A DNA stretch of 64,000 bases from the NCBI RefSeq assembly GCF_000969905.1, contig NZ_CP009520.1, positions 744,001 through 808,000 on the forward strand. Direction: 5' to 3'. Numbering within the stretch: the stretch's first letter is position 1; every line of letters begins with the position of its first letter. This document shows, one piece after another, positions 21,922 through 47,865 of the stretch. Position numbers and translations under genes: made by a program. Source of the stretch: Methanosarcina vacuolata Z-761. Lineage in GTDB: Archaea > Halobacteriota > Methanosarcinia > Methanosarcinales > Methanosarcinaceae. The notes beneath the pieces are model-generated. The model was not told the DNA's origin. It ran no database searches and saw nothing but the letters and a program-made list of their open reading frames with translations.

Positions 21922-22053
21922 TGTATATTCAGCCGGGGAAAAACAACCTCAATAGCCATATTTCATAAAATTCAATGGACAAATTTTTCTGATCCGTTTC
22001 CTTTAATAAATCAATATCATTCAACTTATTTTGGGTAGGCTGAATAATTACAA
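21922..22053. repeat. ATTCAGCC inverted-repeat element, copy 1
   Basis: The ends are GTATATTCAGCC and, inverted, GTAATTATTCAGCC, with inner words CTCAATAGCCAT and AATGGACAAAT that recur in the copies at 28530-28864, 29833-30028 and around 34300-34370. It encodes nothing. Confidence 0.65.
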
Positions 22054-22117
22054 ATTTTATTTAATTGAATTTATGCAATAGATCCGAATTGTCTAATTCA
22101 CATATGGAGGGTAAAGA

Positions 22118-23041
22118 ATGAAAACTAGATTAATAGTTTCTCTGATAGTGCTATGCTTAGTTTTTTCTCTTGGCGCCGCGCAAGCATCAGAGCCTGCAGG
22201 AAACATGACTGGAAATATGAGCAACGTGACCGAAAATATTAATGGAACCATAATTTGTAACATGACTGGGAATATGACCATGACCGGAATCATGACTGGG
22301 GCCATGACTGGTATGAGTAATATGACCGGGAACATGGATAACATGACTGAAAACATGGGTAATATGGCCGATATGGGTAACATGACTGGGAATATGACAT
22401 GTAATATGACTGGAACCATGATCGGGAACATGGGAAACATGAACGATATGGGTAATATGACTGGGAATATGACATGTAATATGACTGGAACCATGATCGG
22501 AAACATGAGTAACATGACCGAGATGGGTAACATAACTGAAAACATGAGTAACATGACCGGTATGGGTAATATGACATGTAATATGACTGGAACCATGATC
22601 GGAAACATGAGTAACATGACCGGTATGGGTAATATGACATGTAATATGACTGGAACCATGATCGGAAACATGAGTAACATGAACGATATGGGTAACATGA
22701 CTGGAAATATGACATGTAATATGACTGGAACCATGATCGGAAACCTGAATAACATGACCGAGATGGGTAACATAACTGAAAACATGAGTAACATGACTGG
22801 AGTTATGACCGGAAACATGACCGGTATGGGTAATATGACCGGTAATATGACCGGAGTCATGATATGTCATATGACTGAAAACATGACCGATATGGGTAAT
22901 ATGACTGGAAACATGACCGATATGGGTAACATGACTGGAAACATGACTGGAAACATGACTGGAAACATGAGTAACATGAATGACATGATCAGAAACATGA
23001 ATGACATGATCAGAAACATGAGTAACATGATCAAAAGATAA
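22118..23041 (+). CDS. Secreted Met-rich, N-M-T sequon repeat protein (307 aa)
   Basis: A strong GGAGGG precedes the ATG. Residues 1-24 form a signal peptide (KTRLIVSLIVLCLVFSLGAA, then QASE). The rest is almost wholly built from Asn-Met-Thr-Gly style units. A longer unit, MGNMTGNMTCNMTGTMIGNM, recurs about five times, and the C-terminus ends in NDMIRNMNDMIRNMSNM. More than 30 NMT triplets, plus NMS, NIT and NVT, make nearly every Asn a possible N-glycosylation sequon. Methionine is roughly a quarter of all residues, and cysteines recur within NMTCNMT. Thioether-rich extracellular proteins can bind soft metals such as Cu(I); together with the P-type ATPase 136 bases downstream, this suggests metal or ion handling at the surface, as inference only. 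No known family. Confidence 0.85.
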   Translation: MKTRLIVSLIVLCLVFSLGAAQASEPAGNMTGNMSNVTENINGTIICNMTGNMTMTGIMTGAMTGMSNMTGNMDNMTENMGNMADMGNMTGNMTCNMTGTMIGNMGNMNDMGNMTGNMTCNMTGTMIGNMSNMTEMGNITENMSNMTGMGNMTCNMTGTMIGNMSNMTGMGNMTCNMTGTMIGNMSNMNDMGNMTGNMTCNMTGTMIGNLNNMTEMGNITENMSNMTGVMTGNMTGMGNMTGNMTGVMICHMTENMTDMGNMTGNMTDMGNMTGNMTGNMTGNMSNMNDMIRNMNDMIRNMSNMIKR

Positions 23042-23177
23042 TAACTACATCGATGACAGTAAAGACGATACCGATGACTATGACAGCAGACAATAACGAA
23101 GTTACAGAAAGACAACAACAAGGATAAGATCTCTTAAGTTTCTTATTCTTATGCCACATTGAGTTATAGGATATTCG

Positions 23178-26027
23178 ATGGAGACAAAATTGACTGGTAG
23201 CAAAAGCAAGATTTGTCCTCCGCAGGGCGATGAGCATAAAATCGCTCTTCCCGAGTTTCTTCAAAGATTAGGAGTTGACGAAAGCGGACTTCGCGAGCAG
23301 GAAGCTGCAAGGAGACTTCAGGAATGCGGACCTAACGTTCTCGAAGAAACAGGAAAGGAAAGCATATTAAGTAAGTATATGAGGCAATTTCGGAATTTTT
23401 TTTCAATTTTGCTGATTATAGGAGCTATTCTGTCTTTCCTTGGAGAATACCTTGATCCTGGAAAAGGGAATCTGTATATTGGAATTGCTCTTGGTGTGGT
23501 CGTAATCCTTAATGGAACCTTCACATTTGTCCAAGAATACCAGGCTGCAAAAACGATGGAAAGTTTTCGGCAGCTCCTTCCTCCCCGTGCAAAGGTTTTA
23601 AGGGAAGGTAAAGTCAGAGATGTTCTGGCTTCGGAACTTGTTGTAGGAGATATCATCCTTCTTGAGGAAGGAGATAAGGTCCCGGCTGACGGGCGCTTAA
23701 TTGAGACAAACTCTCTGAAAGTTGATCATTCGACCATAACAGGAGAAGCAGAGCCTCAACTACGCTCTCTTGAATGCACTAACTCGAATATACTTGAGTG
23801 CAGAAATATGGTTTTTTCCGGGACGCTAGTACAAAGCGGGAATGGAAAGGCTGTCGTCTTCGGAACAGGACAGAACACCCAGATTGGAAAACTTGCAATA
23901 CTCACAGAACAGATTTTGAGGGTAGACACTCCCATCCGGAGAGAGCTCAATCGCTTCATAAAAATCATCTCTACAATTGCGATTTTAATGGGAGTAACCT
24001 TCTTCATTCTTGCGTTTCTTATTCAGGATACCTTTCTTGCAAGCCTCATCTTTGCGATCGGAATCATAGTTGCAAATGTGCCTGAAGGGCTTTTGCCCAC
24101 GGTAACTCTTGCTCTTAGCCTGGCTTCCAGGCGAATGGCTTCGAGGAATGCCCTTATAAAGAACCTCGAATCCGTAGAAACTCTGGGCTCGACTACTGTC
24201 ATCTGCACTGACAAAACCGGAACTCTTACCCAGAACAGGATGGCAGTAAATTCTCTCATCGTCGGTTTTGAAAATTTAGTACCTAAAATAACTTCAGGTC
24301 TCGAAAAAAGGGTTGTAGAGCAGGAGACAGAAGAAAGTACAAAACAAGGCATTGCAGGAAAAGTTACGGGTTCAGGAGCAAAAAGGGTTTATGTTGTAGA
24401 AAGTCCCATATGGGATCCTAAAAAGGTACCTCCTACTTTAATAAGGGTTGCAGGGCTCTGCAATAACGCAAAACTTCGCGAATTACCAACTGGATACACT
24501 GGCGATCCTACCGAAGGAGCACTTCTTGTTTTTGCAAACAGTTTCCAGGACATAAAAACACTTCAAAGTGATTATCAAAGGCTGAAAGAGTTTCCTTTTG
24601 ATTCACTTACCAAAAGAATGGAAGTTATCTGCCGCACTCCTGAAGGTAACCTTGAAATCTATCTTAAGGGAGCCCCTGAGGTGGTTGTGAAGATGTGCGG
24701 TTCAGTTAGAGATTCAGGTGAGGTTAGAACACTTATCGAAAATGATAAAAAAGAACTTCTGGACAGGCACCTGGAACTGGCAAGAAAGGGAGAACGGATA
24801 ATTGCCCTTGCGTACAGGCAAGCAGAAGAGCAGAAAGAGTATACTGAGGATTTTATTTTCCTGGGATTTATCGGGATTGTAGACCCTCCGCGGCCTGAAG
24901 TCAGAGAAGCTATTGCAAAGTGCCATGCAGCCGGGATCAAGGTTGTTATGATCACCGGTGATCACCCAGTCACTGCAGAAGCAATCGCGAAAAACGTGGG
25001 ACTTGTGGATTTTGGAAACCTTGAAATTATTACTGGAGACGAGCTGGAGTCACTCTCACGTACAGATCTTTCTTCAAGATTGAAAAATCCGAGCATTGTA
25101 TTTGCCCGTACTTCTCCTATTCAAAAACTGAAAATCGTACAGCTTTTCCAGGCTGAAGGGGAAATCGTGACCATGACAGGAGATGGGGTCAATGATGCTC
25201 CTGCAATTAAGAACGCAGATATGGGGGTTGCAATGGGCAGCGGCACGGACGTAGCTCGTGAAGCTGCGGATATGGTGCTTCTGGACGACAATTTCGCCAC
25301 TATCGTGAATGCTGTAGAGGAAGGTAGAACTGTTTTTGATAATATAAAAAAGTTCATTGTATACATCCTTGCCAGTAATATCCCTGAGGTTCTGCCTTTC
25401 ATAGCCTTCGTTCTCTTTGCTCTTCCCCTTCCTATGCAAGTACAGCTTATTCTGGCAATTGATCTGGGTACGGATATGTTACCTGCCATTGCTCTGGGAA
25501 TGGAAAAAGCAGAAGGAGATATTATGAAAAGGCCTCCAAGGGCTAGGGACGAAAAGCTGCTAACGCCTCAAGTGCTTTTAACAGCTTATGGAATAAAGGG
25601 ACCTATAGAAGCTGCAGCAGGCTTTTTCTGTTATTTTGCCGTACTTTTTGAAGGGGGCTGGAAATTCGGCGAGCAACTTGCAAACAGCAATCCCCTTTAT
25701 ATGCAGGCGATTACTGCTTTCTTTTCAGCGGTGATTATCTGCCAGATAGCTAATGTTTTTGCTTCCAGAACCCGGTTTCAGTCAGTGTTCACAATGGGCT
25801 TGTTCAGCAACCATACGATTCTGTTAGGGATTGCAAGTGAATTACTGATTCTAGTTTTTATTATCTGGAATCCATTTGCCAATCTTATTTTTAACACTTC
25901 GCCCCTTGACCTCAGATATTTATTATTTGCTGTTCCTTTTGCAATCTTCCTGCTTGGAATCGATGAGTTAAGGAAATATTTGCTTAGAAAAAACGTGAGC
26001 TGGGCGGCTAGATTCTTAAAGTGGTAA
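23178..26027 (+). CDS. P-type cation-transporting ATPase (P2, Na,K-ATPase-like)
   Basis: The 949-aa pump has the cation-ATPase N domain (residues ~24-90), the A-domain TGE at 188-190, the M4 motif VPEGLLPTV (301-309), the phosphorylation motif DKTGTLTQ at 345-352, MITGDHP and TGDGVNDAPAIK in the P domain, and a C-terminal six-helix cation domain. The sequence around M4 and the phosphorylation site (NLESVETLGSTTVICTDKTG) is of the P2C Na,K/H,K-ATPase style rather than the bacterial copper (P1B) type, since CPx and metal-binding domains are absent. Likely ions are Na+, K+ or Ca2+. It is the next gene after the Met-rich repeat protein in the same direction and may share its transcript. Complete and apparently functional. 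Confidence 0.93.
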   Translation: METKLTGSKSKICPPQGDEHKIALPEFLQRLGVDESGLREQEAARRLQECGPNVLEETGKESILSKYMRQFRNFFSILLIIGAILSFLGEYLDPGKGNLYIGIALGVVVILNGTFTFVQEYQAAKTMESFRQLLPPRAKVLREGKVRDVLASELVVGDIILLEEGDKVPADGRLIETNSLKVDHSTITGEAEPQLRSLECTNSNILECRNMVFSGTLVQSGNGKAVVFGTGQNTQIGKLAILTEQILRVDTPIRRELNRFIKIISTIAILMGVTFFILAFLIQDTFLASLIFAIGIIVANVPEGLLPTVTLALSLASRRMASRNALIKNLESVETLGSTTVICTDKTGTLTQNRMAVNSLIVGFENLVPKITSGLEKRVVEQETEESTKQGIAGKVTGSGAKRVYVVESPIWDPKKVPPTLIRVAGLCNNAKLRELPTGYTGDPTEGALLVFANSFQDIKTLQSDYQRLKEFPFDSLTKRMEVICRTPEGNLEIYLKGAPEVVVKMCGSVRDSGEVRTLIENDKKELLDRHLELARKGERIIALAYRQAEEQKEYTEDFIFLGFIGIVDPPRPEVREAIAKCHAAGIKVVMITGDHPVTAEAIAKNVGLVDFGNLEIITGDELESLSRTDLSSRLKNPSIVFARTSPIQKLKIVQLFQAEGEIVTMTGDGVNDAPAIKNADMGVAMGSGTDVAREAADMVLLDDNFATIVNAVEEGRTVFDNIKKFIVYILASNIPEVLPFIAFVLFALPLPMQVQLILAIDLGTDMLPAIALGMEKAEGDIMKRPPRARDEKLLTPQVLLTAYGIKGPIEAAAGFFCYFAVLFEGGWKFGEQLANSNPLYMQAITAFFSAVIICQIANVFASRTRFQSVFTMGLFSNHTILLGIASELLILVFIIWNPFANLIFNTSPLDLRYLLFAVPFAIFLLGIDELRKYLLRKNVSWAARFLKW

Positions 26028-26285: not shown

Positions 26286-26516
26286 ATGGATATTCCAGAG
26301 AGAAAAGACCTTCTAGGAGCTAACCTTGAAGGAGCTGACCTTATAGAGGCTAATCTTGAAGGAGCTAATCTTGAAGGGGCTAACCTTGAAGGAGCTCAAC
26401 ATTTATCACTTGACCCGCTTTCTACAGTGAAAACACTTCATAATGCAAAATTAGACAACGAGCTCCTCATAACCCTAAAAAAGAAGTGCCCTGCCCTTTT
26501 TAAAGTATCTGATTGA
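26286..26516 (+). CDS. Short pentapeptide-repeat protein
   Basis: About six pentapeptides of the A(D/N)LxG type (LLGANLEGADLIEANLEGAN, LEGANLEGA) are followed by a 35-residue tail, LSLDPLSTVKTLHNAKLDNE and LITLKKKCPALF. That tail ends longer Methanosarcina pentapeptide-repeat proteins, so this looks like a shortened version in which most of the right-handed beta-helix is missing. TTG at 26280 or ATG at 26286 could start translation; no good ribosome-binding site is seen. The larger paralogue at 28832-29473 has the opposite defect, repeats without the tail. Confidence 0.65.
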   Translation: MDIPERKDLLGANLEGADLIEANLEGANLEGANLEGAQHLSLDPLSTVKTLHNAKLDNELLITLKKKCPALFKVSD

Positions 26517-28864: not shown

Positions 28865-29473
28865 CATTTTAGAAAGCTGGTCAAATGTCAAATAATGAGC
28901 TTCTCTAAGGTTAACTCCATTAAGGTTAGCTCCGTCAAACTTAGCTCCTTTAATATTCGCCCATCTAAAGTTAGCTCCATCGAGGCTAGCCTTTATAAGA
29001 TCAGCTCCTTCCAGATTAGCCCCTGTAAAGTTAGTCCCTTCAAGGTCAGCTTCTTCCAGGTTAGCTCCTCTAAGCATAGCCCAATTAAGATCAGCTCTTT
29101 CAAGGTTAACTTCTCTAAGGTTAGCCCTATGAAGATTAGCTCCTCTAAGATTGGCTCCTTCAAGATTAGCTCCTTCAAGGTTAGACCATTCAAGGTCAGT
29201 TCCTTCAAGGTCAGCTCCTTCAAGGTTAACTTCTCTAAGGTCAGCTCCTTTCAGGTTAACTTCTTTAAGGTTAGACCATTTAAGGTTAGCTTCGCTAAAG
29301 TTAGCTCCTTCAAGATTAGCTCCTTCAAGGTTAGCTTCTCTGAGGTTAGCTCCCTCAAAATGGGATTCTTTCAGATCAGCTACTCTAAGGTCAGCCCCTA
29401 TAAAGTTAGCTCTTTTAAGGTTAGTCTCTATAAGGTTACCCTCATTAAAATTAACTTTTTTAATTTCATGCAT
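28832..29473 (-). CDS. Pentapeptide-repeat protein, C-terminus truncated by an element
   Basis: From an ATG at 29473 with AGGGGAG upstream, the 213-aa protein consists of about 35 consecutive A(N/D)LxG-type pentapeptides (FEGANLREANLEGANLEGAN and so on), which fold as a right-handed square beta-helix. The end reads NLREAHYLTFDQLSKM, then VTIQPTKNHC. The last ten residues come from the inverted-repeat end GTAACTATTCAGCC of the 28530-28864 element, whereas the paralogue at 26286 continues KTLHNAKLDNELL after the same point. Function of such proteins varies (gyrase mimics, envelope scaffolds) and is unknown here. A longer N-terminus up to 29560 is possible but lacks a ribosome-binding site. Confidence 0.8.
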   Translation of the reverse strand: MHEIKKVNFNEGNLIETNLKRANFIGADLRVADLKESHFEGANLREANLEGANLEGANFSEANLKWSNLKEVNLKGADLREVNLEGADLEGTDLEWSNLEGANLEGANLRGANLHRANLREVNLERADLNWAMLRGANLEEADLEGTNFTGANLEGADLIKASLDGANFRWANIKGAKFDGANLNGVNLREAHYLTFDQLSKMVTIQPTKNHC

Positions 29474-33475: not shown

Positions 33476-33655
33476 GAGCTTATCCCAAAACTTGATTAAT
33501 CGTTTAAAATTCAAGATTCAGGGAATCATTTAAAATTCAAGATTCAGGGAATCATTTAAAATTCAAGATTCAGGGAATCGTTTAAAATTCAAGATTCAGG
33601 GAATCGTTTAAAATTCAAGATTCAGGGAACCAATTTTGAGTTCTGGAATGAGCTC
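33476..33655. mobile_element. GAGCTC MITE, copy 3, with internal 26-bp tandem expansion
   Basis: The ends are GAGCTTATCCCAAAAC and TTCTGGAATGAGCTC. Inside, AATC(A/G)TTTAAAATTCAAG-ATTCAGGG (26 bp) is repeated five times (33498-33628). The same inner sequence occurs once in the other copies, so the element has grown by replication slippage. Confidence 0.75.
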
Positions 33656-40922: not shown

Positions 40923-42719
40923 TTGGGAAAACATTTTGTCATAATTGCCGGAGAAGAAGCAGGCCCTAAATCAAATAAAATGGGCGGGATCTGGAATGTT
41001 ATTCATGAAGAAGCACAAACCCTTGCTTCTCTTTTCGATTCAGGACAATTGGATACAAAAGAAGATAAAGAGATCCTTGTTGTGGGCCCTTATTATGCTC
41101 ACAGAGGCGCGGACTGGAATCGAGGATTAAACCGGATTACGGAGATGGAGGAATTTGAATCCCTGAACCCTGGCGAAGAACTCCGGAAAAGCCTTGAATC
41201 CCTTGAAAACTCAGGTATCAAGGTATTTACAGGATGCAAGTTCGTGGGGGGAATGAAGATAGGCTATTTGCAGTTTCAAACCTCGGATTTTGGAAAAATA
41301 CGTTGCATGTATCAGGGAAAGGAGATGAACCTTGAAAGCAAGATCAAATCCGAAGCCTATGAGCACCTTGGGCTTGATTCCCTGAAATATGAAAATATGT
41401 CAAACGGGCCTGAGTATACCCATTACCTATGCCTGTCCTATGCGGTTTCCGAACTTGTCAGGCTCCTTCTAAGCACAGCTTCGGAAAATTCCGAAACCAC
41501 TGGTGCAGCTTCAACTCATAATTTTATTCCCTGCCCAGGCGTCTCTCTGCACTGCCATGAATTTGGGGTATTTTATGCGCCAGCCAGGCTTAAGAAACTT
41601 GGAATTCCAGTAAATACTGTTGCAACTCTGCATGCAACTCTACCTGGAAGGACTGCAGGATATAATACTATCCAGAAAAGAAGGAATAATGACAGCACAT
41701 GGCCTTCAGGCGTGCCTGAAAACCTGGCTGCCCTTGAAGCGCTGGCTGCATATGCCGATACGGTCACTGCAGTAGGAGAATCGACCCGACAGGAAGCCAG
41801 GCTCTTTTACGGGATTAACGGAATTGTGATCCGAAACGGAATAACCATAGAATCCGACAAGATAAACTGGGACCTGAAAGAAAGCTCCCTTGAACGGATC
41901 CGAAAATTCCTTTCCGAAAATCTGTATAAGTACCACGGAGGGGAAAGGATAGAACCCGAAAAGATAATTCCGATTTTCACAATATCTCGCCTGGAAGTGG
42001 AAAATAAAGGATATCCGGACCTTCTCGATTCCCTTGTTGCACTTGAGCACATAATAAAAAACAGCATTCTCGAAGGACATATGCAGGAGGGAATCAGGGT
42101 AATCTGTTTCCTTGTTACAGCCGAAGGGTCCAAAACAAACCTTCCGTCAGGATTTCCTGTGAACCTGCCAAAAGAGGTGCTTGTAGGAAACGAACTGAGA
42201 ATCCAGCAGATGATTGAGAAAAGGGGGCTGGATTTTCCAAAAATGGTACGGGGGAAACGCTCGGTTGCAGCACTTTTATACCCACAGATTCTTTCAAGCT
42301 CGGACGGAGGTCTGGGCATGGAAGTTGGAGAATTTATGGCAGGCTGCTGTGCAGGTATCTTTCCCTCGCGTTATGACCCCTTCCTGCTCACCGGGCTTGA
42401 AGCCGGAAAAGAAGGAACCCCAAGTGTGGTCAGTAGGGTATGCGGCTTTAGTGATGCCATAAAGACAATTGAGTCCCTTAAAGAAGCGCTTGGTGGAGTG
42501 ATAGTAGTAGACAATATAGGTCTTTCCTATTACGAAACAGTCCTTGACTACGCCCTGGCAGTCAGTTATTTTACACGGAATTTCATAGAAGATAGGGTAA
42601 AATATAAACTTCTCTGCAGGGAAGCCTTCCTCCTTGCAAAAGATATGGACTGGAAAGCTCCTACTGAACAGTATTATGAACTGATAAGCGGGGCTCGGTT
42701 CTGCAAACAGGAAAAATGA
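40923..42719 (+). CDS. Glycogen synthase-like glycosyltransferase (GT3/GT5 type)
   Basis: The 598-aa GT-B protein starts at a TTG after GGGGG. It has the N-terminal donor-loop GPKSNKMGGIWNVIHEEAQT, the acceptor-side VSLHCHEFGVFYAPARLK and VNTVATLHATLPGRTAGYNT, and the C-terminal nucleotide-binding FPSRYDPFLLTGLEAGKEGT followed by PSVVSRVCGFSDAI. The latter resembles the eukaryotic GT3 glycogen synthases (E-A-x-x-x-G-x-PS-V-x-x-x-x-x-GF) more than bacterial GlgA. It probably elongates glycogen from UDP- or ADP-glucose. It is followed directly by the 16-bp minisatellite and by galT, which supplies UDP-sugars. Intact. Confidence 0.85.
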   Translation: MGKHFVIIAGEEAGPKSNKMGGIWNVIHEEAQTLASLFDSGQLDTKEDKEILVVGPYYAHRGADWNRGLNRITEMEEFESLNPGEELRKSLESLENSGIKVFTGCKFVGGMKIGYLQFQTSDFGKIRCMYQGKEMNLESKIKSEAYEHLGLDSLKYENMSNGPEYTHYLCLSYAVSELVRLLLSTASENSETTGAASTHNFIPCPGVSLHCHEFGVFYAPARLKKLGIPVNTVATLHATLPGRTAGYNTIQKRRNNDSTWPSGVPENLAALEALAAYADTVTAVGESTRQEARLFYGINGIVIRNGITIESDKINWDLKESSLERIRKFLSENLYKYHGGERIEPEKIIPIFTISRLEVENKGYPDLLDSLVALEHIIKNSILEGHMQEGIRVICFLVTAEGSKTNLPSGFPVNLPKEVLVGNELRIQQMIEKRGLDFPKMVRGKRSVAALLYPQILSSSDGGLGMEVGEFMAGCCAGIFPSRYDPFLLTGLEAGKEGTPSVVSRVCGFSDAIKTIESLKEALGGVIVVDNIGLSYYETVLDYALAVSYFTRNFIEDRVKYKLLCREAFLLAKDMDWKAPTEQYYELISGARFCKQEK

Positions 42720-43085
42720 ATATCAGGAAAAATGAATATCAGGAAAAACGAATATCAGGAAAAACGAATATCAGGAAAAACGAATATCAGGAAAAACGAA
42801 TATCAGGAAAAACGAATATCAGGAAAAACGAATATCAGGAAAAACGAATATCAGGAAAAACGAATATCAGGAAAAACGAATATCAGGAAAAACGAATATC
42901 AGGAAAAACGAATATCAGGAAAAACGAATATCAGGAAAAACGAATATCAGGAAAAACGAATATCAGGAAAAACGAATATCAGGAAAAACGAATATCAGGA
43001 AAAACGAATATCAGGAAAAACGAATATCAGGAAAAACGAATATCAGGAAAAACGAATATCAGGAAAAACGAATATCAGGAAAAAC
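42718..43085. repeat. Minisatellite: 23 perfect-length tandem copies of a 16-bp unit (GAATATCAGGAAAAAC)
   Basis: The array begins in the last codons of the glycogen synthase gene and ends 29 bases before galT. Units 2-23 are identical apart from an occasional base. Because 16 is not a multiple of 3, all rightward frames read a 16-residue repeat without stops (KRISGKTNIRKNEYQE), so long frames here are a by-product and not genes. Each unit holds CAGGAAAAA, whose AGGA could act as a ribosome-binding word. Confidence 0.95.
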
Positions 43086-43114
43086 GAAAAGAAATATGGT
43101 GAGGTTTTCCTGAA

Positions 43115-44119: not shown

Positions 44120-44718
44120 GGCTTGTAAAACAAACTGATTAAGAGGATTCAAAAGAGTTATTTTTATTTATAGCTTAAATTATAACAAAAATTTACAGAT
44201 ATATTTATCTACCATTAAAAAGGAATAAAGTTAGTAAAATATAAAAAATACGATTCTTTATACAAAAATTATCTTCATGTCACGTAAATCAAAGTCATAC
44301 TCCTTTTGATTTATACGACTCGTTGAAGGCTTAAGGGGTATAGAATTATAGACAGATTCTAGTAAGCTGGATTCAGTAAACTTAAGATAAGTATAACTGA
44401 ACTAACTAATATACTTTTAATAAAGGATTAATCCAACTAATTAATATATACTTTTAATAAAGGATTAATCCAACTAATTAATATATACTTTTAATAAAGG
44501 ATTAATCCAACTAATTAATATATACTGTTACCATAAATTCTTAATGTAACCTATTGATAAATTAGTATAAACTATTACTATAAATTACTAATATCATAAA
44601 CCAGTAATATGACCGAATTCAGCAAACTAAAGAATGTAATTATTAAAAAGGCAAGGAGGAGCCTGCATTCTTCGTTACTCCTTAACTCCCATTTTGATAA
44701 AAAGGGATAAGTGAGCTT
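44120..44718. repeat. Gene-free AT-rich stretch with a 37-bp tandem repeat
   Basis: At about 44395-44525 the unit GGATTAATCCAACTAATTAA plus TATATACTTTTAATAAA (37 bp) occurs a little over three times; it contains the palindrome GGATTAATCC. No gene. AAGGGATAAG near 44700 is a plausible translation signal for the next gene. Confidence 0.75.
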
Positions 44719-47371: not shown

Positions 47372-47489
47372 AATAACTCTTCCTTTTAATTGTTTTTGGG
47401 CCTGTGCCCCATTTATCGGGGTCACCTGGAGCTTATTCCAAGATAATTTGAAGTTCAATATCTGGTTTGATTTGAGATATTTCTTTAAT

Positions 47490-47715
47490 TGGAAAGTTAA
47501 GTGATTACTTGATTGGAAGTTAAGTGATTACTTGATTGGAAAGTTAAGTGATTACTTGATTGGAAAGTTAAGTGATTGCCTGATTGGAAAGTTAAGTTAT
47601 TACTTGATTGGAAAGTTAAGTTATTACTTGATTGGAAAGTTAAGTTATTACTTGATTGGAAAGTTAAGTGATTACTTGATTGGAAAGTTAAGTGATTACT
47701 TGATTAGAAGTTAAA
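47490..47715. repeat. 24-bp tandem repeat (about 9 copies)
   Basis: The unit TTGATTGGAAAGTTAAGTGA plus TTAC is repeated with one 23-bp copy and a few changes (GTGATTAC to GTTATTAC). Since 24 is a multiple of 3 it yields an apparent LIGKLSDY repeat frame, but there is no ribosome-binding site and I do not call a gene. Confidence 0.9.
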
Positions 47716-47865
47716 TGATTCCCTTATTGAAATTTAATGGACTCCAGATTAACCGAATTTTTTAACCGGTACAGGTTGTTGGATTTCTGAACTGAAACCC
47801 ACCTTAAACTCTGGTATCTTGAGCAGGCATTCATTATTGGCTTTAGACTGAATAAGAATAACTTT

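Follow-up and report, generated by a model that had tools for sequence, protein, structure and literature searches.

A methionine-rich, sequon-dense secreted protein of Methanosarcina vacuolata belongs to a genus-limited family and is a candidate for dense N-glycosylation

Methanosarcina species carry a genus-limited, previously undescribed family of sequon-dense secreted proteins. One member is encoded by M. vacuolata Z-761 within the window considered here, a stretch of 64,000 nucleotides (NZ_CP009520.1, positions 744,001 to 808,000; coordinates are those of the window unless a contig or locus is named). Judged from its own sequence and those of its relatives, this protein is probably (we put the probability at roughly 0.6) a densely N-glycosylated, extended chain that is secreted or associated with the cell envelope.

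The gene occupies positions 22118-23041 on the plus strand, as do all features of this gene and of its immediate neighbours given below, and it encodes 307 amino acids from an ATG start. It is preceded by a leader (22045-22117; CACATATGGAGGGTAAAG and similar) that includes a ribosome-binding site of the GGAGGG type and aligns with the leaders of A-type and B-type family members, two forms described below, and of the c12 paralogue. Residues 1-23 (22118-22186) form a signal peptide, MKTRLIVSLIVLCLVFSLGAAQA|SEP, with a cleavage site (...GAAQA|SEP) read by eye; it is kept in relatives, where its consensus is MKxKLIVSLLALCLxLSxVSVQAQ, and is the only hydrophobic segment of the protein. Residues 27-282 (22196-22963) constitute an array, recognized by composition, shuffles and tandem repeats, that is built of NMTG, NMTC and NMS units, contains no Pro and follows a loose super-repeat of 24-25 residues, with a tandem-repeat period of ~75 bp in the DNA. 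Across residues 27-307 (281 aa) there are 73 Met (26.0%, against a background of 2.0% in 15 other long ORFs of the window), 60 Asn (21.4%), 46 Thr (16.4%), 44 Gly (15.7%) and 7 Cys, and Met follows Met at a spacing of 3 or 4 almost throughout. The same residues hold 44 N-x-S/T sequons, an excess far beyond chance because 2000 composition-preserving shuffles yielded 11.7 +/- 2.8 sequons with a maximum of 22.

The ORF, the signal peptide, the 26% Met and the sequon excess thus establish as real the secreted Met-rich repeat protein described in a first-pass annotation, including its Met at roughly every fourth position. The accompanying statement that nearly every Asn lies in a sequon went too far (44 of 60, or 73%), and the periodic Cys that it reported are present but come mainly from five copies of a single unit. 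These five 33-nt units, each encoding TCNMTGTMIGN, are near-identical, which marks part of the array as a recent duplication. The 21 NMTG units, by their third positions, fall into eight DNA versions, and this variation is synonymous. Comparison with homologues, which keep the frame and show dS above dN, shows that the plus-strand frame of the array is coding. Reverse-strand ORFs of 255, 227 and 141 aa across the array were dismissed as a side effect of the absence of stop codons from the repeat, since it is the plus frame that has the signal peptide and is conserved. Beyond the gene, positions 23055-23134 contain a 24-codon open frame (MTVKTIPMTMTADNNEVTERQQQG) that resembles a leftover coding end.

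A search with the window protein returned matches in 23 of 31 Methanosarcina genomes, and a profile of its longer relatives matched 22 of the 238 genomes of the class, belonging to 1 of 39 genera (Methanosarcina). All strong matches fall within this genus, as do all named relatives in public genomes. No NCBIfam family matched the window protein, no Pfam model matched family members above cut-off apart from DUF4430, found in the extended member L034, and literature searches found no described Met-rich Methanosarcina protein, in agreement with the initial remark that no such family had been described. The main form of the family, designated A-type, is about 300-640 aa long and is found mostly at a conserved locus, next to an Ion_trans channel gene and a thioesterase-like gene, often with a Kef-like antiporter as well; its neighbours also include a DNA polymerase X-like gene, and the thioesterase and polymerase X-like identities were named by eye from sequence. 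In the 4.56 Mb host genome the A-type gene is at C2:3244121; the window protein, encoded away from that locus, is a paralogue of a second form, the B-type. Its nearest relatives are two genes of genome G012 (52-55% identity), followed by a 130-aa gene of G002 (L076) with a TCNMTG unit. With the A1 profile the window gene was matched at E-values of 1.1e-17 and 2.7e-11; these values, like the identities to the G012 copies, are inflated to an unstated extent by shared composition, a bias that does not affect the leader and the MKxKLIVSLL.. signal peptide, which also place the gene in the family. Nearly all members have in common a leader with a G-rich ribosome site at its end, and throughout the genus leader, signal peptide and, for the A-type, position on the chromosome are conserved.

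A-type relatives (e.g. L023:8122-9213 in the same genome, L029 and L062) share with the window copy the signal peptide, the leader, TCNMTG units and the enrichment in sequons and Met. They differ in their greater length, their conserved locus and their strand-like segments (TGKMIIIRNM, GKMDNMPGKVVIFG), whereas the window copy has lost these segments and is a nearly pure array with a Met heptad at its end. Other variants were encountered. In several genomes the A-type gene is followed directly by a second sequon-rich secreted paralogue with the family leader and signal peptide (L024:8800-10890, L080:2399-3586; the L024 copy has no Pfam match), and one A-type member (L034:7095-9023, in G009) bears an extra C-terminal DUF4430 domain. 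A short B-type-like gene apparently devoid of a signal peptide is found elsewhere in the host genome (G000:C2:2312284-2312646; L082, L086), with counterparts in G003 and G005; these are possibly decaying copies.

The sequon excess is a property of the whole family. In 20 of 20 family proteins sequons are about 3-5 times as frequent as expected from shuffling and more numerous than the reversed motif, and in all 20 NxT outnumbers NxS, with x mostly Met, then Ile, Val and Ala; Met content ranges from 8 to 26%. In the A-type alignment, conservation of Asn is 0.66 inside sequons versus 0.46 outside, and that of Ser/Thr 0.74 versus 0.47. In some relatives, expanded linkers have kept the sequon and lost the Met, as NATEAD repeats in L032 and as NVTE/NVTD in L034 and L030, and stretches of NMTG are found within surface domains of the DUF4430/fasciclin type, or between them, in L031, L070 and L071 (the domains of L070 and L071 being assigned by sequence likeness, with no domain scan). 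The host genome has three genes for STT3 oligosaccharyltransferases, so that, as expected of an N-glycoprotein, a secreted protein with excess sequons coincides with the enzyme. Linker sequons, surface-protein NMTG runs and STT3 genes together give indirect support to a cell-surface glycosylation-site array. Two of the three STT3/AglB genes are near each other (G000:C2:844191-850375), ~77 kb downstream from the array. Three aglB homologues are also present in M. mazei, whose surface proteins carry N-glycans (PMC4350412). The literature examined contained no glycopeptides or occupancy data for this family, and site crowding could leave most of the sequons unused.

The contribution of Met is harder to separate from that of the sequon. 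At NM[S/T] sites, Met was lost and the sequon kept in 406 comparisons, as against 439 with Met kept and the sequon lost; with counts so nearly equal, a fixed sequon with a free Met was rejected as a clean separator of the competing readings. Taken with the conservation of Met outside sequons (0.59 in the A-type alignment), these counts suggest that Met is probably under some selection of its own, perhaps as a hydrophobic residue, an idea supported by the amphipathic character of the C-terminal heptad. The first-pass annotation had posed a choice between extreme N-glycosylation and a thioether array for soft metals, and the family pattern favours the former. An extracellular sponge for Cu(I), Ag(I) or Hg(II), or a scavenger of oxidants, with glycosylation secondary, would accommodate the abundance of Met (26% in the window protein and 8-19% in A-type relatives, against 2% background), its conservation beyond the sequons, a 3-4 spacing like that of MxxM/MxxxM metal motifs and the recurrence of one Cys position in the repeats. 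Yet His is almost absent (0-1 per family protein), the family loci have no conserved metal-resistance gene, Ala, Val or Gln replaces Met in the arrays of several species, and the sequon excess would be left unexplained. Searches of Pfam and NCBIfam for metal-binding domains in the window protein gave sub-threshold matches only (CsoZ, E=0.57), and we regard the metal array as unsupported and quite unlikely.

It is also conceivable that the sequence is essentially non-functional low complexity that arose when an ancestral A-type surface gene expanded through slippage or unequal crossing-over. The five near-identical 33-nt units are what such a process would leave behind, linker length varies widely between species, and both the host and other genomes contain short relatives, of which some lack a signal peptide (L076, L077, L079, L082). 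In the window gene, however, signal peptide, leader and frame are all intact, the NMTG units vary synonymously at third positions, dS exceeds dN against the G012 copies and the sequon bias is retained. Between near A-type orthologues dN/dS is roughly 0.25-0.45, which indicates purifying but relaxed selection, as one would expect for a surface protein whose linkers vary. Freely varying repeat length, named at the outset as grounds for invoking slippage alone, is partly seen, in the wide range of linker lengths, but it is accompanied by purifying selection and by retention of sequons, leader and signal peptide, and a purely slippage-born origin without function is unlikely.

The glycosylation reading extends to the C-terminal end of the window protein, where the array gives way to a Met heptad, NMSNMNDMIRNMNDMIRNMSNMIKR (22964-23038), with Met gaps of 3-3-4-3-4-3. 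Its hydrophobic moment is 1.73 versus 0.58 for shuffled sequences (p=0.0002), and the G012 relatives (L021, L022) have MDxMTKK heptads with an equal 3-4 Met spacing (p=0.006 and 0.06), these p-values being optimistic because the segments were picked by eye before the test. The segment is probably an amphipathic or coiled-coil helix with a Met core, and a C-terminal helix is present in an AlphaFold2 model of low confidence. Overall confidence was very low both for the window protein (9-row alignment, mean pLDDT 31) and for an A-type relative (8-row alignment, mean pLDDT 30). A bactofilin-like beta-solenoid was considered as an idea for the A-type; comparison of the very-low-confidence A-type model (pLDDT 30) with PDB folds gave no match above Z 4.2 and carries no weight for or against it, and a PDB sequence search with the A-type profile gave zero matches at E<=1.

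The next gene in the same direction encodes, as first annotated, a cation pump: a full-length P-type ATPase of the Na,K-ATPase type (P2C/IIC; 23178-26027), identified by Pfam, NCBIfam and PDB matches, with a copy elsewhere in the host genome (C2:238195) and orthologues across Methanosarcina. It shares with archaeal P2C pumps the motifs PEGL, SNIPE and IDLGTDM, placed at its ion-binding helices; among PDB entries it matches animal alpha subunits best, and its score against NCBIfam TIGR01106 (749.6) lies below the cut-off of 946.1. Archaeal pumps of this type are known yet uncharacterized, and their role is open (PMC10654040). With 136 bp between the array stop codon and the pump gene, both on one strand, and with a glycosylated beta subunit in the animal P2C pumps (PMC10654040), it is enticing to view the array protein as an accessory subunit. 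The comparative evidence makes this very improbable. No Met/Asn-rich ORF lies near any of 19 further pump loci, one of them the second copy in the host and the rest from 18 other Methanosarcina genomes (several kb inspected at each), and in 22 of 22 other genomes with a family match the matches lie off the pump contig or hundreds of kilobases away. The pump is present and the family absent in the near-complete genomes G008, G011, G023 and G024, and the family is present in G006 and G030, which lack a close pump orthologue. The pump gene has its own leader (23134-23177), defined by aligned leaders and by blastn homology that begins at 23132-23136, inside the intergenic gap, in most orthologues; in G002, which has the nearest orthologue (92%), pump and B-type gene lie on separate contigs; and the array protein has no hydrophobic segment beyond its signal peptide. 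Because pump loci occur without the array gene, each gene occurs independently, the leaders are separate and the G002 genes lie on separate contigs, the adjacency is judged, from these genomes, to be local to the host, and the functional link is rejected, together with the pairing of the two genes implied by the first-pass annotation, which had itself named the occurrence of homologues without the ATPase as a refutation.

Upstream, a PRC-barrel protein (PF05239; 20834-21271) is encoded. The same gene also precedes the B-type genes in 2 of 2 testable relatives, those of G012 (L021) and of G002 (L083), although in the latter its coding sequence is broken into two frames. As PRC-barrel genes are numerous in Methanosarcina, this association may reflect synteny rather than function. 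Other repeats are found in the window. A 16-bp unit, CAGGAAAAACGAATAT, is repeated 23.8 times at 99% identity (42708-43088); the run begins where a glycogen-synthase-like ORF (40923-42719) ends, at its stop codon, and gives an open frame of NIRKNEYQEKRISGKT repeats. Pentapeptide-repeat-like DNA of 15-bp AGGAGCTAACCTTGA units (26287-26515 and 28907-29438) flanks a gene pair resembling an HtpX-type protease and a LemA-type protein. Near-perfect tandem arrays lie at 47488-47720 (24 bp x 9.8), 33498-33629 (26 bp x 5.1) and 44409-44530 (37 bp x 3.3).

Several known systems invite comparison. The fasciclin/DUF4430 surface proteins (L031:5688-8039, L070, L071) are likewise sequon-rich, presumably extracellular and endowed with NMTG runs, but they have large folded domains, none of which was detected in the window protein. 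Mucins combine low-complexity tandem glycosylation sites with variable length, and are mainly O-glycosylated on Ser/Thr/Pro-rich repeats. The array shares the variable-length tandem sites and differs in that its sites are N-linked sequons without Pro. The DUF1608 S-layer proteins of Methanosarcina (MA0829, MM1976), for which glycosylation has been reported (PMC4350412), resemble the window protein as secreted surface proteins. Pfam gave no DUF1608 match in the latter even at E=1, and on this evidence it is not an S-layer lattice protein.

If the family is indeed glycosylated, the N-M-T and N-M-S motifs, displayed on a long flexible array, would be substrates of AglB (STT3), and dense N-glycosylation would yield a mucin- or stalk-like chain. 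In B-type members the terminal Met-heptad helix would probably oligomerize or dock the protein, and the main role of Met, both at the heptad core and between Asn and Thr, would be that of a small, flexible hydrophobic residue. The resulting structure might serve spacing, hydration or adhesion at the envelope. More tentatively, one may speculate that these genus-specific proteins are N-linked mucins, in which up to 44 glycan sites in ~280 residues, mostly occupied by AglB, and Met-heptad coiled coils build a surface glycan brush. The present analysis removes a false link between a repeat protein and an archaeal Na,K-ATPase, and delimits a genus-wide family of surface proteins absent from profile libraries. 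Should the sequons be used, the protein would represent natural N-glycosylation of very high density and offer a ready test substrate for how close together sites can be modified by an archaeal oligosaccharyltransferase.
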